Source: Fibrobacter intestinalis (GTDB lineage Bacteria; Fibrobacterota; Fibrobacteria; Fibrobacterales; Fibrobacteraceae). From it: a DNA stretch of 64,000 bases. Below are positions 3,223 through 52,936 of this stretch, in pieces. Within the stretch, counting starts at the first letter, position 1, and the number at the start of each line of letters is the position of its first letter. A model generated the notes under the pieces. That model did not search any database. It was given only the letters and a program-made list of their open reading frames with translations, and was not told the DNA's origin. The DNA lies in contig NZ_FUWU01000003.1 in NCBI RefSeq assembly GCF_900167415.1, positions 1 through 64,000 of the forward strand, given 5' to 3'. The position numbers and the translations under genes are program-made.

Positions 3223-5673
3223 CTAGTTCCTCCAAGCATAAATAAAATTTTCTTTAGGATTAAAATCTACCCGGAAAATTTTAGTACGTTGATGAACAAC
3301 GATATCTTTTGCAAGAATCCTTCCGTAATAAATCTTTTTTGTCTGTCCGATGATAATTTTTGCCAAAGGCGCGTACAACGTTCCACACAAGTCCCCTTCA
3401 ATATATATTGTCCCCGATTTATGCAGAACAAGCATGAAGCCGCTAGCCACGGAATTCCAATAATTCATATCTTCAAGCGGCCTATTTGAAGAAGTTTTCC
3501 AATTTAACTTTCCATCGACATTTAATATCGTTTTCACCCCAGGATTTGAAAATTCAATTACCGCGCCCGGTTCCAACTGTAAAAGTCCTCGGACAAACAT
3601 TTCTCCTGGTTCAAAAACAAGAGTGGCTCCATTATCGATTTTCAACGTATCATAAGCCATTCCATTCGAGAAATAAAACGTTTCACCTGCAGAAACTTCT
3701 TTTTTGGAAGAATAGACAACTTTCGAGATGTTCGGAAGAGTGAAAAGATAATTCAACTTCCAATCTCGGACATATTTTAATTCTACCCGGCCTTGAATTT
3801 CAGAAGCCTGTTGACGAGACATAAATTTTCCCGCCGTTACTGTGTCCACAACATCTCCTACTTCAGGTAAAGAACTTTTGGCGAACAAGCCGACATCACC
3901 ATGAATTACAGAGCGATTTCGCATCTTTACAATTCCATTCGAATACGATCGAAAATATGCATCTACATTTCCCACATGACTATCCACTCCTAAAGAAACA
4001 ACTTCGGGATCTTCTATATATTGAAAAGCATTCCCCCCAGCAGAAGCAATCTTGCAAAAACTCTCATTTTCCAACACGGAGTTAAAGCACTGTACGCCAT
4101 CATTCAAAGTTAGATGATCCCTTGCAAAAAGAGTGTAATCAACTGGCACCGCCATCAATTTCAACGTGTCATCAGAAAATCTCTGCAACCCATCTATAAT
4201 CCCGTCCCCATTATCATCGGCATCCATTTCAGCCCGAACACCGTCCTTGTCTTTATCCGACATATACTGAAGATCATACGCAGCATCGCAATTCGAGCAA
4301 GGAGAATTTGCGTTATACGCATAAGAATAGACCCCCCTTTTATCATCAATTCCATCTCCATCGGAATCCGCATTGAAAGGATCCGTCCCAAAACGCTCTT
4401 CTTCATCAAAATTGACAAGGCCATCACTATCTGAATCATAATGGATTCTGTAGTCCGTCATTCTAACAGAAGTTGGAGCATTTTCCATCAGATAATAAAA
4501 CTCTATTGGCGAGTCTTTTATGACTGAATTTGATTCGGTACCCTCATTATCGCCAAAAGCGTACAAAAAAGCGTAGTTTGATTCATCGCCAACGTATCCA
4601 TGAATAACCATCACATGCTGATAAATTCCGACAAGAATCAATCTCCCCGCATCTATTTCCCGTTTTACAATTTGATAGGATGGCGTCCCTTCATAACGAA
4701 GAACGTTATCCGAATTCAAAACAAACTTTAAGGATTTATCAATCTTGACACTGTCAGCTCCATAGTTGGCTAAAGGTGACCATAACGGTTCTGATTTTTT
4801 AAACTGAACGGCAAAGACTATTTCATCCTGCGTTATATTACCTCCATAAAAATGGTTAATGATCTCCGCCGAAATCGCCCAGCACCTTAAACTTTCCTTC
4901 GAATCCATTTTCAAAGAATCTACATGCGAAACATCCCACCCACTCTCCTTTAAATTATGCATGTAGCTTAAATTCAGCAACCTTGTATCTTTCCTGGCTC
5001 TGATCCTTTCAACAGGACGTTCTTTCCAAAGATCCACATTAATTCCTTGAAAGGCAAGTATCGTTGCCGTAGGATCTATTTGCAAAACTCCATCCTTTTC
5101 CTCATAAATGAAGCCAACCTCATCAGATTGATAATTTCTGGTTTTCCAAGGGTAAGGATCCGAATTCAAGGAATTCGTATTGGCCGAAATATTTTTTTGC
5201 ATATTTACTGAAATTTGGTCCGTCGCCTGATACATATCTTCATAGAAAAGGATTTTGGGATTTTTCACAAATTCGGATGATTTTAAATAACTCGGATCTT
5301 TGGTCTTGTTTAAAAGACGCAGGCTTTGATAATGAATTTTAACCCCGATTCCAGAATCCTTCGGATAAAAGCCTTCCGGAATTGAATCCATCGAGATTTC
5401 TATATAACCAAGCGTGTCGTTTAACAACGAAAGATGGTATTTAGAAGTTTCCAAATGGCTCGATTCAACAACCATTTCTTCTTCTCTATCCTTTTGGAAA
5501 ATATAGCGGATTTTTACATTTCGCAATAGTCGTCCCGCATCATTCTCGATACGAATTTGCATTCCAAGTATTGTATCGTTGCCCACTTGTTCGTCTAAAA
5601 AATAAACAGATGAAGCAAAAGCCAACTCCGCCCAACTTAAAAGCGTCAACAGGATAAAAATCATTTTTTTCAA
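3223..5673 (-). CDS. Large secreted protein: papain-like fold plus Ca-binding repeats
   Basis: About 816 residues. The start is taken as TTG at 5673, seven bases after AGGAG, with ATG 5664 as alternative; it is followed by the signal peptide MIFILLTLLSWAELAFA. The middle region has RCWAISAEIINHFYGG and later QHVMVIHGY, the spacing expected for the Cys and His of a C39/papain-like peptidase (bacteriocin-processing or thiol-protease fold). Next come thrombospondin type 3-like calcium repeats (DSDSDGLVNFDEEERFGTDP, DADDNGDGIIDG). The last ~250 residues look like a beta-rich passenger with a polymer-like 'GKLNWKTSSNRP' region. Substrate unknown. It is first in a two-gene operon with the 443-residue protein. 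Activity is inferred from the Cys/His pattern only. Confidence 0.65.
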   Translation of the reverse strand: MKKMIFILLTLLSWAELAFASSVYFLDEQVGNDTILGMQIRIENDAGRLLRNVKIRYIFQKDREEEMVVESSHLETSKYHLSLLNDTLGYIEISMDSIPEGFYPKDSGIGVKIHYQSLRLLNKTKDPSYLKSSEFVKNPKILFYEDMYQATDQISVNMQKNISANTNSLNSDPYPWKTRNYQSDEVGFIYEEKDGVLQIDPTATILAFQGINVDLWKERPVERIRARKDTRLLNLSYMHNLKESGWDVSHVDSLKMDSKESLRCWAISAEIINHFYGGNITQDEIVFAVQFKKSEPLWSPLANYGADSVKIDKSLKFVLNSDNVLRYEGTPSYQIVKREIDAGRLILVGIYQHVMVIHGYVGDESNYAFLYAFGDNEGTESNSVIKDSPIEFYYLMENAPTSVRMTDYRIHYDSDSDGLVNFDEEERFGTDPFNADSDGDGIDDKRGVYSYAYNANSPCSNCDAAYDLQYMSDKDKDGVRAEMDADDNGDGIIDGLQRFSDDTLKLMAVPVDYTLFARDHLTLNDGVQCFNSVLENESFCKIASAGGNAFQYIEDPEVVSLGVDSHVGNVDAYFRSYSNGIVKMRNRSVIHGDVGLFAKSSLPEVGDVVDTVTAGKFMSRQQASEIQGRVELKYVRDWKLNYLFTLPNISKVVYSSKKEVSAGETFYFSNGMAYDTLKIDNGATLVFEPGEMFVRGLLQLEPGAVIEFSNPGVKTILNVDGKLNWKTSSNRPLEDMNYWNSVASGFMLVLHKSGTIYIEGDLCGTLYAPLAKIIIGQTKKIYYGRILAKDIVVHQRTKIFRVDFNPKENFIYAWRN

Positions 5674-19749: not shown

Positions 19750-20526
19750 ATGTTTTCAAAATTAAGAAATATTTGGAATCAGCGGCAGGCCTATATACAC
19801 CTATTATCTCTTTGGGGAATTAAATACAAGTGTCCTATTTGCGGTTTCCATTCTAAAGACTTAAACCCTATTGGCATTGATAACGCTGCTATCCGAAAAT
19901 ATCAAATCATTGGAGCTGGCAAACGTAATGTAGGGTGTCCTAAATGCGGTTCTACTGATCGCGAACGTCTTTTATACACATATTTAAATAACGAACTAAA
20001 AATATTTAATCAGCCACATACAAAAATTTTGCACATCGCCCCAGAAATAATAATTATGCGTAAATTCCTTAATCATGGATTTACAAATTATCATTGCGGA
20101 GATTTCTTTGCAGAAGGTCAACATGCAGATTATTCTTCTGAGCTAGTGAAACATATGGATGTTCAAAACTTGCCTTTTGATGACAACTCTTTTAACCTCG
20201 TCATATGCAACCATGTATTAGAGCATGTTCACGATGATGAAAAGGCAATGAAAGAAATTTATCGTGTATTGTGCAGAGGGGGGGCAGCAATACTCCAGGT
20301 TCCAATCTCCCCTATTTTAGAAAAAACAATTTCAGATCCTTCCATAACAGACCCAAGAATTCTCGAAGAAAAATTTGGGCAAAAGGACCATGTACGCCTA
20401 TTCGGAAGAGATTATCCGTCAAAATTAGAATCATGCGGTTTTGTAGTAAACACGCTGAAACTGCAACAAAAACACCCAAAATTCGGGTTTAATCCAGAAG
20501 AAGTTTTGTTCATCGGAAGAAAATAG
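19750..20526 (+). CDS. Class I SAM-dependent methyltransferase with zinc-ribbon N-terminus
   Basis: 258 residues. The N-terminal KCPICGFHSKDL and VGCPKCGSTDRERLL form a four-Cys zinc ribbon, as in several glycan or rRNA methyltransferases. The catalytic part has LPFDDNSFNLVICNHVLEHVHDDEKAM (Methyltransf_11, motif IV) and LCRGGAAILQVP. In this locus it probably methylates the polysaccharide or its precursor. The stop is followed one base later by the first of a series of GT2 genes. Confidence 0.8.
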   Translation: MFSKLRNIWNQRQAYIHLLSLWGIKYKCPICGFHSKDLNPIGIDNAAIRKYQIIGAGKRNVGCPKCGSTDRERLLYTYLNNELKIFNQPHTKILHIAPEIIIMRKFLNHGFTNYHCGDFFAEGQHADYSSELVKHMDVQNLPFDDNSFNLVICNHVLEHVHDDEKAMKEIYRVLCRGGAAILQVPISPILEKTISDPSITDPRILEEKFGQKDHVRLFGRDYPSKLESCGFVVNTLKLQQKHPKFGFNPEEVLFIGRK

Positions 20527-24120: not shown

Positions 24121-25083
24121 ATGCCTGAGCCGCTTGTTTCCATAATTGTTCCGATATATAAGGTCGAACCCTATCTTCGGCGGTGTTTAGACAGTATCGT
24201 CAATCAAACATATACTAATCTTGAAATTATTTTGGTAGACGACGGGTCCCCAGACAACTGTCCGCAGATTTGCGATAAATATGCGGAGAAAGACAAACGA
24301 ATTGTTGTCGTCCATAAAAAAAACGGCGGACTCTCTAATGCGAGAAATGTCGGTTTAGATATTTGCCAAGGAGAATATATATCGTTTGTGGATAGCGATG
24401 ACTGGGTGAGCGAAACATATATCAAGGCGCTTATTAGGTTGATAGCTGAAAACGATTCAGACATTGCAATTTGTGAACATTTAAAAACTGCTGAGGAAAA
24501 AACAAAAAAAGAGTTCTTTGTAGACAAAAAAAATTATTCATCTAAAGAAGCTCTGTTACGGCTTTTTGCAAAGAATAACATAACGTATGTGGTGAGTTGG
24601 GGGAAACTTTACAAAAATTCTCTTTTTGCGTCATTTCGTTTTCCTATAGGAAAATATCACGAAGATGAATTTACCACTTACATTCTATTTTACAACTCAA
24701 AAAAAATCAGCTATACTTCAGAAATCCTCTATTACTACTACCAACGTAGTGACAGCATTGTTTCAACAAGGCATCCTTGGGATGTATTAGAATGCCTCGA
24801 ACAACGATATATCTTTTTCAAAGAACGAAGCGAAACAACGTTTCTTCCACTTATACTACCCTCTCTTTGTTGGCAACTTCTATGTGCATATTGGGATTTA
24901 TACATACGCAAAGATCTATCCAGCCACTCATATTTAAACAAACTACGTTTTTACATAAAAGATTTTCAACACATCAAAAAACCATTACTTCACTTTATTC
25001 CATTAAGCATTTTTTCCCACATTCCAAGCCTTTATTTTTTATACCGAAAAATATCTCCCCTACATATAAGAAAAGAGTTTTGA
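24121..25083 (+). CDS. Glycosyltransferase family 2
   Basis: 320 residues: MPEPLVSIIVPIYKVEPYLRRCLDSIVNQTYTNLEIILVDDGSPDNCPQICD with the DxD SFVDSDDWVSETY. This is the EpsJ/WcaA-like branch common in capsule and O-antigen clusters. AT-rich. Followed six bases later by another GT2. Confidence 0.85.
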   Translation: MPEPLVSIIVPIYKVEPYLRRCLDSIVNQTYTNLEIILVDDGSPDNCPQICDKYAEKDKRIVVVHKKNGGLSNARNVGLDICQGEYISFVDSDDWVSETYIKALIRLIAENDSDIAICEHLKTAEEKTKKEFFVDKKNYSSKEALLRLFAKNNITYVVSWGKLYKNSLFASFRFPIGKYHEDEFTTYILFYNSKKISYTSEILYYYYQRSDSIVSTRHPWDVLECLEQRYIFFKERSETTFLPLILPSLCWQLLCAYWDLYIRKDLSSHSYLNKLRFYIKDFQHIKKPLLHFIPLSIFSHIPSLYFLYRKISPLHIRKEF

Positions 25084-25089
25084 TTTCCA

Positions 25090-26007
25090 ATGTCTAAAAT
25101 AACCGTCATCGTTCCAATTCATCATGTAAGCGGCTCATTCTTAGATCAATGTTTAAGTTCTTTATGTTTGCAAACTTTCAAAGATTTTGAAGCAATTCTT
25201 GTATTAAACGATGCAACAAGCAAAGAGCAAACTATTTCCCAAAATTTTTGCGATAAAGACCCTAGATTCAAGTTATTTAAAATAGATATCGCCGATGTTT
25301 CTACGGCAAGAAATGTTGGGCTAGAATACGCCCAAGGGAAATATATAATTTTTCTTGATTGCGATGATTGGTTTTCAGAAGATGCACTACAAAAGCTTTA
25401 CAATTTGATGGAAACTAGCCTAGCAGAAATAGGAATTGCAAATACTCAAAAAATTTGGGATAACGAAAAAAAACAGATTCTATTCAAATTTTATGATCAT
25501 GAAGAAGATGTTCTCCTAAAACGAATTCCAAATGTCGCCGTATGGGGATTCATCTTTAAGAAAGATATTATAAAAAACAAGCACATTCGTTTTCAAGAAG
25601 GCCTAAAGCTCTCTGAAGATCGAGTATTTCTATTCGAATATTACTTATACTGCAAAAGAATTGCATTTACAAATGATGTTGTATATTTTTATCGGCAACA
25701 TAATGCGAGCGTCTGTAATGTCTTGCATACACACGAGCATGCCATTCAACAAATAAAGGCAGCGACGGCTCTTCACGAGATATTAGCAAAATCGCCAGAA
25801 TATTCAAAAAAAGATATAGAACATTCTGATAGAATTTTAACGCGAATGGGTATGGTCGCCTATATTAATTCAGGAACAACGAAAGACGGTATTAAACAAT
25901 TAAGAGACTTCTTCCTTACAAACATTAGTGAATCTAACATTATTTTTTATTATTGTTGGTATAGAGCGAAAATATCCGCTTTTATAGGAAGACTTTTACA
26001 TCTGTAG
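25090..26007 (+). CDS. Glycosyltransferase family 2
   Basis: 305 residues: ITVIVPIHHVSGSFLDQCLSSL and the DxD-type IFLDCDDWFSEDAL (first Asp followed by Cys-Asp-Asp). GT-A fold with a helical C-terminal part. The initial DD of the donor pocket is replaced by VLNDATSK, a mild deviation from family consensus, but the fold and later motif are intact. Confidence 0.8.
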   Translation: MSKITVIVPIHHVSGSFLDQCLSSLCLQTFKDFEAILVLNDATSKEQTISQNFCDKDPRFKLFKIDIADVSTARNVGLEYAQGKYIIFLDCDDWFSEDALQKLYNLMETSLAEIGIANTQKIWDNEKKQILFKFYDHEEDVLLKRIPNVAVWGFIFKKDIIKNKHIRFQEGLKLSEDRVFLFEYYLYCKRIAFTNDVVYFYRQHNASVCNVLHTHEHAIQQIKAATALHEILAKSPEYSKKDIEHSDRILTRMGMVAYINSGTTKDGIKQLRDFFLTNISESNIIFYYCWYRAKISAFIGRLLHL

Positions 26008-26009
26008 TT

Positions 26010-26903
26010 ATGTCATTTATCACTATCTTCACACCCACTTACAATCGGCGACACTTGATAGACAACCTCTATCAATCCCTTTTACAACAATCTGAAAAAA
26101 ACTTTGAATGGTTGGTTGTTGATGATGGCAGTTCCGATGATACAGAGCAATATTTTTCGGGATTACTTTCCAAACCACAACCATTTCCTATTCAATACAT
26201 AAAACAAGAAAACGGTGGTAAACATCGGGCGATAAATCGAGGTGTAAAAAAAGCGAACGGAGAACTTTTTTTTATCGTTGATTCTGACGATTATTTAATC
26301 GACAAAGCCATTGAAAAAATCAATCAATGGATTGTAATGCTAGATAATTCTCACAAATGGGCCGGTGTTTCTGGACTAAAAGGGTATTCTGAACAAAAAA
26401 ATGTCGGACAACACCCCTCAACCAGTTTCGTAGATGCAAAAAACACTGAACGTCGCAAATTTCATCTAGAAGGCGACAAAGCCGAAATCTATTTTACAGA
26501 TGTGTTAAGAAAATATCCATTTCCAGAAATCTCGGGTGAAAAATTTATTTCAGAAGAAATAGTTTGGAATGCAATTGCGCGAGAAGGGTACTATTTGCGT
26601 TGGTTTAACGAAATCATTTATATCTGTTCTTATCTAGATGGAGGATTAACAAAAGACAGCTCCAAAGACGAGCGAAACCCGCAAGGCAGACTATTATGGG
26701 CTAGAGGACAATTGGAATCTTTTCCAGACGATTGGCGAAAAAGATTTAGCGCAATCGCCATCTATTACAATGCAGTCCATAAAAACAAACCAATTAGCGT
26801 AATTGCAAAAGATTTAGGCGTATCATTTTTCTATGTCATCGTAGCAAAGAGCATCTGTAACATATTTTTTCTTTTTTATCATTTAATTCAAAAAAAAAAA
26901 TAA
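26010..26903 (+). CDS. Glycosyltransferase family 2
   Basis: 297 residues: FITIFTPTYNRRHLIDNLYQSL, WLVVDDGSSDDT and FFIVDSDDYLIDKAI (DxD), with KQENGGKHRAINRG typical for this subgroup. SEEIVWNAIAREG resembles the acceptor-side motif. Two bases separate it from the previous stop; A-rich end (poly-Lys). Confidence 0.85.
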   Translation: MSFITIFTPTYNRRHLIDNLYQSLLQQSEKNFEWLVVDDGSSDDTEQYFSGLLSKPQPFPIQYIKQENGGKHRAINRGVKKANGELFFIVDSDDYLIDKAIEKINQWIVMLDNSHKWAGVSGLKGYSEQKNVGQHPSTSFVDAKNTERRKFHLEGDKAEIYFTDVLRKYPFPEISGEKFISEEIVWNAIAREGYYLRWFNEIIYICSYLDGGLTKDSSKDERNPQGRLLWARGQLESFPDDWRKRFSAIAIYYNAVHKNKPISVIAKDLGVSFFYVIVAKSICNIFFLFYHLIQKKK

Positions 26904-47095: not shown

Positions 47096-48511
47096 CTATT
47101 TTTTTGTCCAAGACGTTCCTTGCGGACCATCCTTGATTTCGACTCCCATTCCCTTCAGCAGGTCGCGAATGCGGTCACTTTCCGCCCAGTTTTTAGCTTT
47201 GCGAGCTTCGGTACGCTGGGCGACCAAGAAATTAATTTGTTCGGAATCATCCGATGAAGCCGAGTCGGCTTTTTTCTGATAGTCTTTCCGAGGCTCGTCC
47301 AATTTCAATCCGAGGACACGGTCGAAATCCGCAACCAGAGCCGCCTTTTCGCCTTCGGACAAATCCGTTTTCAGAACGCTGTTCAAAATGCCCAGCGCCC
47401 GCGGCATATTCAAGTCGTCGCCAATCGCTTCTTTAAATTTCTGCTGCCATTTTTTCGCTTCTTCGCTTTCAATAGCCGTCGCTTTACCCATCAGCGGATC
47501 CGTTTTTTTGTGCAGACTTTTCAACGCTTCCCGAGCACTGTCCAGCGATTCAAAGCTGAAGTTCAAATAATTGCGGTAATGGCTTGTCAAGGCGAACAAA
47601 CGATAGTCCAGCGGGTTGTAACCTTTATCGACGAGGACGGAGACCGTTAAAAATTCGCCTGAGCTTTTGCTCATTTTTGCACCGTCCAAGCGCAAAAATT
47701 CCCCGTGCATCCAGAAGCGGCTAAAAGGCTTTCCCGTGGCGCACTCGCTTTGGGCAATTTCATTGGTGTGGTGCACGCGGACATGATCCGTTCCTCCGCA
47801 ATGGATGTCGAGAGTCGGACCGTTGTATTTCATCGCCATCGCCGAGCATTCGATATGCCAGCCCGGAAATCCGACGCCCCAAGGGCTGTCCCATTCCATC
47901 AGGCGCTTTTTGTCTTTGGGGCTGAACTTCCACAGGGCGAAATCCGTCGCGTGGCGTTTTTCTCCCATGTCGATGCGGGAACCCTTTTTCAAATTTTCCA
48001 CATCCAGTTTTGCAAAATCCGCATAACGCGGAAACTTGAGGCTGTCAAAATAAATGCCGTCGGAAGTTCTGTATGTGAATCCTTTTTCTTCTAGGTTTTT
48101 CACCAGTTCAATTTGTTCCTGAATGTGATCCGTCGCGCGCGTCCAACGGGTCGGCTCTTGAATATTCAAGGCGTGCCAATCCGCCATAAAAGCGTCAGTA
48201 TAAAATTTCGCAATGTCCCAGACGGATTTTCCCTCGCGGGCGGCACCCTTCTCCATTTTGTCGTCGCCGGTATCGCCGTCGCTTGTCAAATGCCCGACAT
48301 CGGTAATGTTTACGATGTGGTTCAATTTATAGCCGTAATACTCCAGCGTTCTACAGAGCGTGTCTTCGAAAATATAGGTGCGCAGATTGCCGATGTGCGC
48401 AAAATGGTAAACGGTCGGACCGCAGCAATACATCTTGACGGTATCTTCGTCGGGAAGAAGGCTGAACGGTTCTTTTTTTCGAGATGCGGTGTTGTAGAAT
48501 TGAAGTGACAT
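47096..48511 (-). CDS. cysS: Cysteine-tRNA ligase
   Basis: 471 residues, the usual length. Class I synthetase signatures: zinc-binding Cys29 region MYCCGPTVYHFAHIGNLRTY (HIGN at about 39-42), GFPGWHIECSAMAM (zinc ligands), and KMSKS in LDGAKMSKSSGEFLTV. It charges tRNA-Cys with cysteine. Last gene of the minus-strand run; 68 bases separate it from the candidate restriction gene. Confidence 0.97.
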   Translation of the reverse strand: MSLQFYNTASRKKEPFSLLPDEDTVKMYCCGPTVYHFAHIGNLRTYIFEDTLCRTLEYYGYKLNHIVNITDVGHLTSDGDTGDDKMEKGAAREGKSVWDIAKFYTDAFMADWHALNIQEPTRWTRATDHIQEQIELVKNLEEKGFTYRTSDGIYFDSLKFPRYADFAKLDVENLKKGSRIDMGEKRHATDFALWKFSPKDKKRLMEWDSPWGVGFPGWHIECSAMAMKYNGPTLDIHCGGTDHVRVHHTNEIAQSECATGKPFSRFWMHGEFLRLDGAKMSKSSGEFLTVSVLVDKGYNPLDYRLFALTSHYRNYLNFSFESLDSAREALKSLHKKTDPLMGKATAIESEEAKKWQQKFKEAIGDDLNMPRALGILNSVLKTDLSEGEKAALVADFDRVLGLKLDEPRKDYQKKADSASSDDSEQINFLVAQRTEARKAKNWAESDRIRDLLKGMGVEIKDGPQGTSWTKK

Positions 48512-48579
48512 AGTGCGGTAAATGTAGAAAATCGAAGGGAAAGGGGAAAGAATGCGGTATCCAATCAGCGCCTATCTTA

Positions 48580-49353
48580 TCAACACTCAACCTTCGGGAA
48601 AAGCATCTTTAAAATTGCTAAAACATCAAATTGATGCTTCTTGGAAAGCATTCCAAAAATCTTAAACAATTCCACGACAAGCCGAGATTCTTTTTCCCCA
48701 ATTTCCCACAGCCCAAATTCTTTGCACTTCAATGTCCTTCCCACAACAGGCATTAGATCAGCCTTTAAAGAGACTATTGGAATGCAGACATAAAGCATCG
48801 GCTGAACACCAACAGCACGCTGTTTTTCCCGAATTACAATTTCAACAGCACATCCATCAGAAAACTCCCGCACAACAAGCGGATACGATACATTCATTTC
48901 AGAAAAATCCAAATCATTAATTCTTTTCGACAAAGGCTTTGTACGAGCTATTGAATAAACCGAATCAAATAAACTTTCTTCGCTAAATTCGCGAATTTCA
49001 TCATATAAACATTTAATGGTTTTCTCGTCACACAAACCAAGTTTAACGGAATAAAACAAAAGCTCGCTCAACTCATAGGCATATTTACATTCGCCTTTGT
49101 TGTTGCAAAATGTTTGACATATAGAAGTTTTGTCCTCATTTTCTTTGGTTGCCAAAAGATCATAGCCAATTTGCCATTCTACATACATATTCTTTTGAAT
49201 ATTCGTCTTGCGAACAGCTATCGGATTCCCATATTCCAAAAATGAATTTCTCTGTTTTACGCGAATTTTCCCTGTTGGTTGGGTCAAAGGGATTTTCACT
49301 GATAGAGGGACTTCCAAATTTCCCGAGAAAATTACTTTTGCTTCTTGAGGCAT
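48580..49353 (-). CDS. Candidate restriction endonuclease partner of the methyltransferase
   Basis: 257 residues, no recognised family. The position argues for a restriction enzyme: it starts 4 bases after the DNA methyltransferase, with its ribosome site (AAGGAAG) within the end of that gene. It has a CxxxC...C pair (SICQTFCNNKGECKY) and a stretch VREFSDGCAVEIVIREK that could be a PD-(D/E)xK-type core (D...E-I-V). The gene is much more AT-rich than the methyltransferase. Could also be an unrelated hypothetical gene. Confidence 0.5.
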   Translation of the reverse strand: MPQEAKVIFSGNLEVPLSVKIPLTQPTGKIRVKQRNSFLEYGNPIAVRKTNIQKNMYVEWQIGYDLLATKENEDKTSICQTFCNNKGECKYAYELSELLFYSVKLGLCDEKTIKCLYDEIREFSEESLFDSVYSIARTKPLSKRINDLDFSEMNVSYPLVVREFSDGCAVEIVIREKQRAVGVQPMLYVCIPIVSLKADLMPVVGRTLKCKEFGLWEIGEKESRLVVELFKIFGMLSKKHQFDVLAILKMLFPKVEC

Positions 49354-49357
49354 TTGC

Positions 49358-50488
49358 TCACTTCCTTTTTAATATTCGATCAATATAATTCCTGACCCTT
49401 TCTTCTTCCCCACTACGAATTTCAATTTGTTCATTGAAAATATCCGGATGGAGGCTCTTGGAGACGCGTACGACATCGTCCGCGACGTTTCCGAACGTTT
49501 CCTTGTCGAAAGGCACATCGAAGTTTCCCATCCAATAGGGAACTTCGGCATAACGCTTAAAGCAATCGACGTAGCAGTAATAGGGAAATTTTTCGGGGTC
49601 CACGTCGACGGCGTTCGCGATGCGGTCCGCGATAAAAGTCCGGCAGCGCTTCAACGCGTTGATGTCCCGCAACGTGTAAAAAAGAATCTCCGGACAATAA
49701 CGCTTTTTCCCGGGATATTTTTCCACGAAATCGGAAACGTAATCCCAGTCGGAAAGCGAAAACGCGTTTCCCTCGACCGTTCGAAACCGGATTTTCCAAA
49801 CATCGTCGAACCGGATTCCGCGTCCAGGCGTTCTCTTGTAAAGCGCGACGACGACGGGAAATCCGCTCGTCTTGGACGTTCCCGCAAATTCGCGGCTATC
49901 GAACACGATATGCTCCAAGAGTGAATAATTTTCGAAAAAAGCGCCCACCGCCTTGAAGTTCGCCTTTTTGATCAGATAGGAAAGCGGATGCAGAATCGCC
50001 GCGTAATCCGCTTCCAACTTGTCGTATGATTTCAAAAAGGAAATTCCGAGGTCGCGGGATTTCAGGTCCGCGTCGACGGGAAGTTCGCTTCGTTTGACAC
50101 CACGATTGATCTGCGACGTCACATCGTTATACGGCGGATTGCCGACGACGACAAGGGATTCCCCATTCCGAACGCCGAACTTTTTCCGGGACACGTCGAA
50201 CAGCGCGTTTTCGCAAAACGTTTCGACCTCGGGAAAAAAACGTTGGACGGTCCGCAGCGCCACTTCGTCCGTATCGTTTCCCAAATAACGGTTTCCAGGT
50301 AGGGATTCCCGCAATTCGAAGAACGCGCCGTATCCGCAGGAGCTGTCGAGCACCGCGCGCCCGGAAGAAAGCCCGTATCGAACAAGCCATTCCCCGACAA
50401 GCGAAACGTATTTTTTCGGCGTGTAAAAACTGCCCAAGTTGATCCGTTCCGCACCATCGAGGTGGGACTGCGTGTGAATGTCCATCAT
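49358..50488 (-). CDS. DNA adenine methyltransferase, gamma type
   Basis: 376 residues. LGSFYTPKKYVSLVGEWL precedes SAM motif I AVLDSSCGYGAFFELRE. The catalytic motif IV is VVGNPPYNDVTSQ (NPPY, N6-adenine or N4-cytosine type). A target-recognition region follows. The layout (motif I before IV, TaqI/Eco57I-like start) suits the modification enzyme of a type II system. Codons are strongly GC-rich (runs such as gacgtcgacggcgttcgc), unlike the neighbours on both sides. Starts 6 bases after the GH57 stop. Confidence 0.85.
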   Translation of the reverse strand: MMDIHTQSHLDGAERINLGSFYTPKKYVSLVGEWLVRYGLSSGRAVLDSSCGYGAFFELRESLPGNRYLGNDTDEVALRTVQRFFPEVETFCENALFDVSRKKFGVRNGESLVVVGNPPYNDVTSQINRGVKRSELPVDADLKSRDLGISFLKSYDKLEADYAAILHPLSYLIKKANFKAVGAFFENYSLLEHIVFDSREFAGTSKTSGFPVVVALYKRTPGRGIRFDDVWKIRFRTVEGNAFSLSDWDYVSDFVEKYPGKKRYCPEILFYTLRDINALKRCRTFIADRIANAVDVDPEKFPYYCYVDCFKRYAEVPYWMGNFDVPFDKETFGNVADDVVRVSKSLHPDIFNEQIEIRSGEEERVRNYIDRILKRK

Positions 50489-50494
50489 TTCCCG

Positions 50495-52936
50495 TCAGTT
50501 CCTTTCCGACGTTCGCCTTTCAAAATTCAGCCAGTCGAACATCGGCAAAAGCGCACGGCTCTGCGGATTTTCCGAATCGGCGACATAGCGTTTATAACTT
50601 TCAAACGCCTGATTTTCGAGCGACGTCTTGTCGATATACAAATTTAGCCAGCCGGCCATCGAGATAAGTCCCGTGATATGCTTGATGACCAGCTCGTCGT
50701 TTTTCTCTGAAGCGGCGGCAATCAGTTCCGACAGTTTTTTGTGGAACATTCGCCCTGTTCCGCCGAACGAAAAATTCGTATTCAAGGATTTTGCTTCGTC
50801 CACCAGTTCGTGCACTTCATTCAAAAGCGTTTCATCGTGCGCTTTCAAATAGCGCAGCGCCATTTCGTGAATTTTGGCATTGATCTCCAACGATAAAGCT
50901 TTGCGCATGGTGTCCGTCAGCGTGTGATCCCGGTCCGCCAAAGAATCGATGGAAAGTCCGTTCTGAATGGCAAAGCCGTCAAACGCCTGCGTCACCTTTT
51001 CCAACCGGGAATTGGTCAGAAGCTGGTTAATGTGCCGCAAGGAATCGCTCATCAAATTTCGCATCCGGACAATATAAGCTGTCGGGAATTGCATCTGCAA
51101 ATCCTTCACTGTCGCATTGAAATTCGGAATAAACGAAACCTCTTCGGGACGCACGCCACCAAACACAACCGCAGTGACCCGCCCCATGGTATCGTTCAAA
51201 GCCAGAATTGTCGCTTCGGTCGTTTCACCAATGTCGGCGTCGTCAAAAGAAGCGTGGACAATTGTTTCAAACTTTCGGGAGCATACAACAGAAGCTGTCA
51301 ATCGAGAATCCAGCTGGGATTTTTCTTCAAATTTTTCCAGTCCCAGATGCAGCACGACAGCACGCTCTGCAAGTAGCTTGAACGCAACAGGCATATCGGG
51401 CATGGCATAGCGGACAAAAACCTCTGTTCCGCTCCAACGATGTTCATTGGAAGTCGCGCGACCCAAAATGCTCAAGAACTGATCCCGCAGCGGATGATTG
51501 ATGGGCAAGAACGGGCGCAAAAGTTCCAAAGCCCTTTCCGCATAGCGCATATTCTGCACTGGTTCCAAGCCCTCAATATCATTGAAGAACCAGCCGCAAC
51601 TGGTGAACGAGAACATGCTGAATTTTTCCACTTCCAGCAGACGAATCGCCGTCGTTCTCGCCTTTTTATCTTTAGGGTCTTTTAAAATTTTATTCAGGAA
51701 TTTTTCCTTGCGCTCTTTTTCTTCGGGCTTGACCAGAGCGTCTATGTATAAATTCCGAGCGTCCCACGGCGACACCGCCGAAATTTTTTCCATTTCTCGA
51801 ACAAAAACATCGTCGGCAAATTTTTTGAGGAAATTCATCGCGTCACGCAACGGCGTTCGCCATTTTTGGTTCCAATCCGCACCGCCGCCTGTCGAGCAGC
51901 CGCAATCCCGATACCAGCGACCGACTCCATGAGCGCAACTCCAAGCGCATCCTTCGGCATGGGAGTTTTTCAAGCGCACTTCGAACTTCGGCGGGAATTT
52001 TTCCAAAAACCATCCGAAATTCACCGGCACCATATTGTGCTCGGGCGCATAATGCTGAAAAAGCCACGCCGCGCACATATCGCCAAAGGGTTCATGATGG
52101 CCGTAAGATTCGCCGTCCGTTCCAATGCTCACCAGTTGCGGTTCATCCCGGTTCGGGTCAAAGCCGTCTTGAATTCGCTTGCCGAAAACATTCGCATCTC
52201 GCAAAAGATGTTCAAAGCCCACGGCGCTTGAAAGCCAGGGATTATAAAAGAAAACGTCCAAATAACCGTCGCAAATTTTTTTCCCTTCTGCATCCACAGG
52301 GTAAATGCGATAAGGGCGAGTCGTATCGATGTCCGTATTTTCGCAGCCTTTCCATTCCGCATTTTTGACGTCCAGCGGACGGAAGCATTCCGCCTGCGTT
52401 GGGGAAAGGATGGTAAAGCGGATTCCTTCACGAATCAAATCGACAACGACGTCCATATTGATGGCGGTTTCCGCAAGCCACATCGCTTCGGGCTTTCTGC
52501 CAAAATGCGTTTCAAAATCCCGAATGCCCCAGCGGATTTGCGTAATGCGATCTTCCGGAGAAGCCAGCGGCATGATGATGTGATTGTAAACCTGCGCAAT
52601 CGCATTTCCATGTCCCAAGCGTTTCAGCGTTTTGGCATCGGCTTCCTGAATGCGGCGGTAAGTGTCCGGCAAATGCGTCCGAATCCAGCCCATCAGAGTC
52701 GGGCCCATATTGAAACTCATGTATTCGTAGTTGTTCACAATGTCCTGAATGCGACCGGAACCCGAAAGGATTCGGCTTGCAGCATTCGGGCTGTAACACT
52801 GAGCAGCAATGCGATCGTTCCAATCGTGGAAAGGAGCCGCACTCGGCTGGTTTTCAATTTCCCCCGTCCACGGATTTTCGCGAGGAGGCTGATAAAAGTG
52901 TCCGTGAATTGCAAAGTAAAGAGGTTGCGTTGCCAT
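50495..52936 (-). CDS. GH57 family protein with DUF3536 domain
   Basis: 813 residues. YFAIHGHFYQPPRENPWTG is the start of GH57 enzymes, with the nucleophile Glu in MWLAETAIN and HEPFGDMCAAW (DxE/H region). The C-terminal half matches DUF3536. GH57 enzymes act on alpha-glucans (amylase, branching or glycogen-modifying). Probably cytoplasmic, as no signal peptide is seen. Follows queA by 15 bases. Confidence 0.88.
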   Translation of the reverse strand: MATQPLYFAIHGHFYQPPRENPWTGEIENQPSAAPFHDWNDRIAAQCYSPNAASRILSGSGRIQDIVNNYEYMSFNMGPTLMGWIRTHLPDTYRRIQEADAKTLKRLGHGNAIAQVYNHIIMPLASPEDRITQIRWGIRDFETHFGRKPEAMWLAETAINMDVVVDLIREGIRFTILSPTQAECFRPLDVKNAEWKGCENTDIDTTRPYRIYPVDAEGKKICDGYLDVFFYNPWLSSAVGFEHLLRDANVFGKRIQDGFDPNRDEPQLVSIGTDGESYGHHEPFGDMCAAWLFQHYAPEHNMVPVNFGWFLEKFPPKFEVRLKNSHAEGCAWSCAHGVGRWYRDCGCSTGGGADWNQKWRTPLRDAMNFLKKFADDVFVREMEKISAVSPWDARNLYIDALVKPEEKERKEKFLNKILKDPKDKKARTTAIRLLEVEKFSMFSFTSCGWFFNDIEGLEPVQNMRYAERALELLRPFLPINHPLRDQFLSILGRATSNEHRWSGTEVFVRYAMPDMPVAFKLLAERAVVLHLGLEKFEEKSQLDSRLTASVVCSRKFETIVHASFDDADIGETTEATILALNDTMGRVTAVVFGGVRPEEVSFIPNFNATVKDLQMQFPTAYIVRMRNLMSDSLRHINQLLTNSRLEKVTQAFDGFAIQNGLSIDSLADRDHTLTDTMRKALSLEINAKIHEMALRYLKAHDETLLNEVHELVDEAKSLNTNFSFGGTGRMFHKKLSELIAAASEKNDELVIKHITGLISMAGWLNLYIDKTSLENQAFESYKRYVADSENPQSRALLPMFDWLNFERRTSERN

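Follow-up and report, generated by a model that had tools for sequence, protein, structure and literature searches.

Restriction enzymes of the R.PabI family have been described as exceptional in that they excise a base, the other restriction enzymes being phosphodiesterases. A 2023 review (PMC10273834) places the family in Helicobacteraceae, Campylobacteraceae and a few hyperthermophilic archaea, and further hosts named in PMC4615327 are Brachyspira, Mycoplasma primatum, Mucispirillum and Caloramator; the name Fibrobacter is absent from the main text of both papers, a statement that extends to these two texts only. The target given for R.PabI, R.HpyAXII and R.CcoLI is GTAC in all three cases (PMC7806768, PMC10273834). 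For R.CcoLI of Campylobacter coli (PDB entry 7cfa), PMC7806768 names Tyr52, His222 and Asp225 as catalytic residues and Lys71 as the AP-lyase residue, and gives ten residues that are predicted to contact the bases.

The window analysed here, a 64,000-nucleotide stretch of the genome of Fibrobacter intestinalis, carries a methyltransferase gene (M) and a second gene (R) between two host genes, GH57 and cysS. The pair looks like a further member of the described R.PabI family, and thus like a rare but already described kind of DNA-defence system; its oddity is that M apparently stems from two sources. R resembles R.CcoLI in family, fold, catalytic triad, predicted base-contact residues and the position of the lyase Lys on an inserted beta-sheet (PMC7806768), whereas host phylum and genomic location differ. 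With R.PabI and M.PabI of Pyrococcus abyssi (2dvy, 3waz) the window pair shares the HALFPIPE fold, the catalytic residues and an adenine methyltransferase partner. However, the genes of P. abyssi are described as lying tail to tail and the AP-lyase activity of R.PabI as weak (PMC4615327, section 5; PMC7806768), whereas the window pair lies on a single strand with M first, and its R has the lyase insertion. HpyAXII of Helicobacter pylori, compared here by description and without alignment, is like the window locus in having M before R and in the decay of R with retention of M (PMC10273834, PMC4615327).

An inserted gene pair between GH57 and cysS

The sequence-only reading had placed a candidate restriction-modification pair, including a methyltransferase with an NPPY motif, between GH57 and cysS. 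Both genes are indeed there, uninterrupted and on the strand reported (Table 1), and their products belong to an adenine methyltransferase and an R.PabI-family enzyme, so that the locus is a restriction-modification pair between housekeeping genes, as that reading proposed. The gaps of 4–6 bases claimed for the whole array are found between GH57 and M (6 nt) and between M and R (4 nt), but R and cysS are 68 nt apart.

Table 1. Features of the GH57–cysS locus and of the second locus in the same genome. Positions refer to the window unless a contig is named.
Feature	Position	Strand	Description
M	49358..50488	-	376-residue adenine-N6 DNA methyltransferase, NPPY motif; relative of the methyltransferases that accompany R.PabI-family enzymes
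R	48580..49353	-	257-residue R.PabI-family (HALFPIPE) restriction DNA glycosylase, predicted to be bifunctional (adenine glycosylase and AP lyase)
GH57 family protein with DUF3536, upstream host gene	50495..52936	-	813 residues; Pfam PF03065 (E 5.7e-15), PF12055 (E 8.1e-45)
cysS, cysteinyl-tRNA synthetase, downstream host gene	47096..48511	-	Pfam PF01406 (E 6.5e-92)
Inserted segment (M, R and ~48 nt after R)	48532..50494	-	from alignment with the empty sites of G001–G005
Native 20-nt spacer ahead of cysS, kept downstream of the insert	48512..48531	-	14/20 bases as in the G001 spacer (hand count)
Composition breakpoint within M	49427..49460	-	best at codon 348 of 376 (~49445)
Second M	G000:C66:4249-5364		63% identical to the window M, uninterrupted; same genome
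Decayed PabI-type locus L014 (G000:C66)	4131-5364		M homologue, then an R stub cut short at ~30 codons

All five congeneric genomes (G001–G005) have GH57 next to cysS with a spacer of ~20 nt between them (in G002, GH57 ends at 3694 and cysS starts at 3719), so the M–R pair has been inserted here, and its acquisition, already proposed from the sequence, is borne out. None of the five congeners yielded a match to M or R; their GH57 is 84–86% identical to that of the window. The end of the window GH57 and the spacer before cysS align to the two halves of the congeners' empty site, which gives an insert of ~1.96 kb with a possible duplication of at most 2–3 nt, its ends having been read by hand from the alignments and being uncertain by 2–3 nt. 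In G002 (L113, contig C9), cysS appears as two overlapping pieces at ~4144–4150, as would result from a frame break or an assembly error.

According to section 4.3 of PMC10273834, PabI pairs sit inside operons in Helicobacter and Campylobacter, and the setting of the window pair is therefore typical. A scan with the sigma-70 consensus across 48300–50800, which cannot show that a promoter is absent, found the minus strand free of promoter-like sites; this fits expression of the pair off the host operon, but is no proof of it. The scan returned two promoter-like and three terminator-like sites, with higher means in shuffled sequence (3.1 and 3.6, respectively). GC skew across the region was uninformative.

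R is an R.PabI-family enzyme that keeps the catalytic and predicted base-contact residues

Although no nuclease family had been recognised in R on the first reading, it belongs to the R.PabI (HALFPIPE) family of restriction DNA glycosylases. R matches the Pfam model RE_R_Pab1 (PF09522) with an E value of 6.5e-37 (126.7 bits, cut-off 25) and PADLOC REase_II with 1.6e-20, and the best solved structure found by phmmer is that of R.CcoLI (7cfa_A, E 3.2e-43), followed by the R.PabI entries 2dvy, 3waz, 6l2n and 5iff. The AlphaFold model of R, a predicted and not a solved structure, was built from a 40-sequence alignment (window sequence included) and has a mean pLDDT of 94.6. Where the earlier reading had suggested looking for a PD-(D/E)XK core, the model has the HALFPIPE fold: in VIA it matches 7cfa_A with Z 25.9 and an rmsd of 2.5 over 231 residues (37% of structurally aligned residues identical) and the top-scoring chains from six R.PabI entries with Z 22.5–24.3, the first row of another fold having Z 2.5. 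In Foldseek, each of the 16 matches at E ≤ 0.001 is an R.PabI or R.CcoLI chain. R is also 38% identical to a Campylobacter plasmid homologue other than R.CcoLI.

Residues of R.CcoLI were mapped onto R by hand, on phmmer and other alignments and with the 7cfa chain offset by three. All 14 residues named for R.CcoLI above are retained. The catalytic Y52, H222 and D225 correspond to Y64, H240 and D243 and the AP-lyase K71 to K90. The ten predicted base contacts are likewise identical: K17, R19, E47, Q49 and I50 correspond to K29, R31, E59, Q61 and I62, and Q158, Q164, M166, Y168 and F215 to Q178, Q184, M186, Y188 and F233. The model has strands 65–67, 81–83 and 89–92 around the position of K90, in agreement with the beta-sheet insertion of the mesophilic type. 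A difference is found at Asn67 of R.CcoLI, which is Lys86 in R; Lys occupies this position in 14 of 72 family members drawn from the best 80 of 155 relatives. Since the ten base-reading residues are all kept, R is predicted to recognise GTAC, and since the catalytic Tyr, His and Asp and the AP-lyase Lys are kept, it is predicted to have both glycosylase and AP-lyase activity.

M and its association with R

M matches the PADLOC model MTase_II (PDLC03275) with an E value of 9.3e-66, and scores below the Pfam cut-offs for N6_Mtase (17.9 bits, cut-off 20.4) and Eco57I (17.1 bits, cut-off 25.3); its paralogue on contig C66 of the same genome clears the former (21.7 bits). With phmmer, no PDB entry matched M at E ≤ 1. 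M shares 39% identity over 346 columns with a methyltransferase encoded on a plasmid of Campylobacter coli beside an R.Pab1-family gene, where the order is M then R as in the window; M here ends 4 nt upstream of R, in keeping with the upstream position of M in bacterial systems.

Of 217 candidate stretches from a genome scan, 155 were confirmed as relatives of R, and the best 80 of the 155 were retained; together with the window, one plasmid and two repeated contigs they make up 84 loci. In 82 of the 84, an M match lies at most 1500 bases from R, upstream on the same strand in 78, with R first in three and on opposite strands in one. In three of the 82 (L045, L070, L101) the match is only a fragment of 89–120 residues, and in both loci without an M match R starts at a contig edge. 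The titles of the best 80 of 155 relatives come from many phyla, among them Fibrobacterota, Bacillota, Spirochaetota, Verrucomicrobiota and Patescibacteria. As to possible vehicles, the plasmid records matching M or R were 14 Campylobacter plasmids (best identity 38% for R and 39% for M). A phage vehicle was not found, since the phage collection held no record matching M or R at E ≤ 1e-5 and none of 32 candidate stretches in a scan of viral contigs was confirmed as a relative of R.

Phylogeny and horizontal transfer

Trees were built of R (72 rows) and M (77 rows), the R relatives coming from the best 80 of 155. Two contigs that duplicate others (L031 and L074, duplicates of L015 and L018) were dropped from the trees and from the 72 pairs but kept among the 74 full pairs considered below; pairs with R of at most 200 or M of at most 280 residues were excluded (L037, L045, L048, L070, L077, L096, L100 and L101). 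The window R falls in a clade of 11 rows (support 100/100) from Spirochaetota, Bacillota, Kiritimatiellota, Pseudomonadota, Verrucomicrobiota and Lentisphaerota, with unassigned rows that include G013. The M tree recovers the same 11 members, joined by the second M of the window genome, again at 100/100, and M and R therefore share their history at the depth of this clade. The range of phyla points to horizontal transfer, although bins may contain foreign contigs, which weakens any single placement in the trees. Several record titles bear RUG labels, which we take to denote rumen genomes.

The window M and the second M of the same genome are nearest neighbours (63% identity, support 94/97). 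Another M tree, with 29 rows, groups the two more weakly (81/79) and places additional M rows without R in the same clade; no starred set of at most half its rows contains the window M. The trees do not support an acquisition of the two genes from unrelated clades, since the same members group together in both. An exchange of M or R within the clade is possible, as the forks inside it are open. An earlier suggestion that M and R can be reshuffled concerns Caloramator, where the two genes of a PabI pair are placed inconsistently and recombination between subfamilies is offered as one explanation (PMC4615327, section 5). In that case it is the trees that disagree, whereas those of the window pair are in agreement and its break is one of composition, inside M.

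A relic second locus and solitary methyltransferases

The window genome contains a second, relic PabI-type locus, on contig C66. Directly downstream of its M lies an R stub that is 83% identical to residues 17–39 of the window R (E ~1e-8) and ends in a stop, with no convincing R match beyond it. When ten R queries were run against 11 M-bearing loci, only C66 had an R remnant beside M; the best matches at the other loci had E values of at least 0.004, the best of them (L016) being away from M, and in G030 and G093 a contig end truncates the M itself. Helicobacter macacae, too, is described as having an intact PabI locus beside a second one with a disrupted R (PMC10273834, section 4.3), but the PabI homologues of that species are described as distantly related, whereas the two M genes of the window genome are each other's nearest neighbours.

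Among 167 genomes of the phylum, an M homologue was found in 11 and R in three. Only 89 of the 167 reach a completeness of 90% with contamination not above 5%, so that absences elsewhere carry less weight; within these 89, M was found in six and R in two. R adjoins an M in three of the 11 M-bearing genomes, so the methyltransferase homologues are not always alone. The other eight have M without a match to R (L016, L017, L019, L020, L021, L120, L121, L122, L123 and L124). Within genus g6, a lipoprotein-like gene lies downstream of M and R in G010, and what is apparently the same gene directly follows M in G032 and G034, as judged from the first residues of the translations, unaligned. Retention of M with loss of R is the pattern that section 4.4 of PMC10273834 links to the toxicity of R, and the same section raises a possible vaccine-like role for a solitary M.

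Proposed mode of action

Very probably, M protects GTAC sites and R excises the adenine of unmethylated GTAC and cleaves the resulting AP site, the pair being an insertion that is probably transcribed with the host operon. M would methylate the adenine of GTAC throughout the host genome, the specificity being that expected from its partner. R, probably as a dimer with a HALFPIPE groove, would bind unmethylated GTAC and flip the adenine out, whereupon Tyr64, His240 and Asp243 would hydrolyse the N-glycosidic bond; Lys90, on the inserted beta-sheet, would then cleave the abasic site by beta-elimination, leaving ends that are hard to religate. The DNA damaged in this way would be that of an incoming phage or plasmid, or the cell's own once the pair is lost. 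M comes before R in the direction of the operon, and both are probably carried on its transcript.

Alternatively, the pair may be kept mainly as a selfish or addiction element whose loss kills the cell and which thereby stabilises the operon, phage defence being secondary. The insertion in an operon, the decayed second copy and the R-less M genes of relatives match the pattern of mobility and toxicity in section 4 of PMC10273834, and no phage record matched M or R. Against this, addiction would use the same proteins and chemistry as defence and nothing here separates the two roles, and PMC10273834 reports that relatives of R.PabI limit phage growth in Escherichia coli. On balance we consider a mainly selfish role plausible but somewhat doubtful.

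A composition break within M

M has a GC content of 0.511 (GC3 0.618) and R one of 0.371 (GC3 0.341). The first reading had taken M to be far more GC-rich than both its partner and its neighbours, which is true of the partner but overstated for the neighbours (GH57 0.499, cysS 0.496). The M–R difference of 0.14 is nevertheless extreme: the 71 other distinct full pairs from the best 80 of 155 relatives have a mean of −0.008 (s.d. 0.026), and the others among the 74 full pairs of that set, two contigs being counted twice, range from −0.048 to 0.07. The change does not coincide with the gene boundary. The log-likelihood ratio (LLR) of a GC3 change-point is 31.9 at codon 348 of M vs. 23.8 at the M–R boundary, and the twelve best positions span codons 343–354, which define the breakpoint range in Table 1. 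GC3 is 0.65 before the break, 0.24–0.28 in the tail of M and 0.34 in R. None of the 71 other pairs from the best 80 of 155 relatives equals this drop over the last 29 codons of M. Since the break falls inside M, near codon 348, we consider with moderate confidence that M is a hybrid that recombined near its 3' end. The possible two-step acquisition proposed from the sequence thus gains from the break within M, but the trees of M and R agree on the source clade.

The mismatch, though not the arrival of the pair, could also be explained by unequal amelioration of M and R after they had arrived together. The agreement of the trees at clade level is in line with this, as are the GC3 values of M and R, which lie at the high and low edges (fourth highest and fifth lowest, respectively) of 106 sampled ORFs of the window genome, M and R included. 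However, the break is sharp, falls within M some 28 codons short of its end and not at the gene boundary, and has an LLR far above the next highest of the 72 pairs from the best 80 of 155 relatives (14.4); moreover, the amino-acid make-up of M is shifted too (GARP/FYMINK ratio 0.83, rank 5/77; 0.52 for R, rank 15/72). Unequal amelioration therefore appears rather unlikely.

If M is a hybrid, a solitary PabI-type M may have acted as a landing pad, a GC-rich M at GH57–cysS recombining with an incoming AT-rich M–R pair. The toxic half would then be lost and regained in cycles at one site. GC-rich M genes (0.53–0.56) near the window M do exist in L153, L154 and L156, whose genomes belong to the same phylum as that of L023 and whose fetched loci showed no R. 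A solitary M at GH57–cysS was not found, the five congeners having none there, and we regard this particular course of events as unlikely. Given the apparently hybrid M and the relic locus on C66, the idea that such systems lose and recover their toxic half becomes testable.

Locus L155 (G369:C48) has an M with a GC content of 0.62 and, downstream, a distant R-like match (31% over 179 residues), possibly a very GC-rich member of the R.PabI family. Elsewhere in the window, positions 24121–26900 hold three consecutive, very AT-rich genes (GC3 0.27–0.33) for family 2 glycosyltransferases, probably a surface polysaccharide cluster, near which lies an AT-rich gene (19750–20523, GC3 0.30) with a SAM methyltransferase domain.

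State of the system and GTAC content

The observed-to-expected ratio of GTAC is 0.70 (1.20 per kb) in 165.6 kb of the window genome. For the congeners, all without a match to M or R, it is 0.52 (0.79 per kb) in 80 kb of G001 and 0.77 (1.71 per kb) in 270.3 kb of the five together. Thus, between the window genome and its five congeners, no avoidance of GTAC attributable to the system was seen, whereas in Helicobacter GTAC is described as strongly avoided (PMC10273834, PMC4615327). The counts accordingly give no support to GTAC avoidance as a mark of a long-resident pair, the congeners without matches to M and R being comparable (0.52–0.77 vs. 0.70), and they are uninformative as to whether R acts on GTAC.

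This would also be expected if the system were silent or R inactive, with methylation alone mattering now. R genes of the PabI family often decay (section 4.4 of PMC10273834), and the window R is AT-rich with a long end branch in the R tree (0.81, median 0.19), on account of which an altered activity is possible. Yet R is full length and keeps all 51 columns that show at least 90% conservation among the 71 other members from the best 80 of 155 relatives, and a silent or inactive system appears quite improbable. That R is a new type of restriction enzyme or a PD-(D/E)XK nuclease, as the sequence-only reading had surmised and as might be thought from the NCBIfam library alone, in which no model fits R and which would leave it unnamed, can be dismissed with near certainty, because Pfam PF09522, the PDB chains found by sequence and the fold matches, including every Foldseek match at E ≤ 0.001, all identify it as a member of the described R.PabI family, which acts by base removal and not by backbone hydrolysis.

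Absence of Ku from the host is a reported, though not strictly defining, correlate of R.PabI systems. Ku was found in none of the five genomes searched, which include G001 and G003 without the system, so that the result is not discriminating; a control search of 14 genomes found it in one, that of Bacillus subtilis. Within the window, GATC and GGCC are depleted about twofold (observed/expected 0.51 and 0.50, respectively), as they are in G001 (0.50 and 0.44), and thus more strongly than GTAC, whose value in the window is 0.72.
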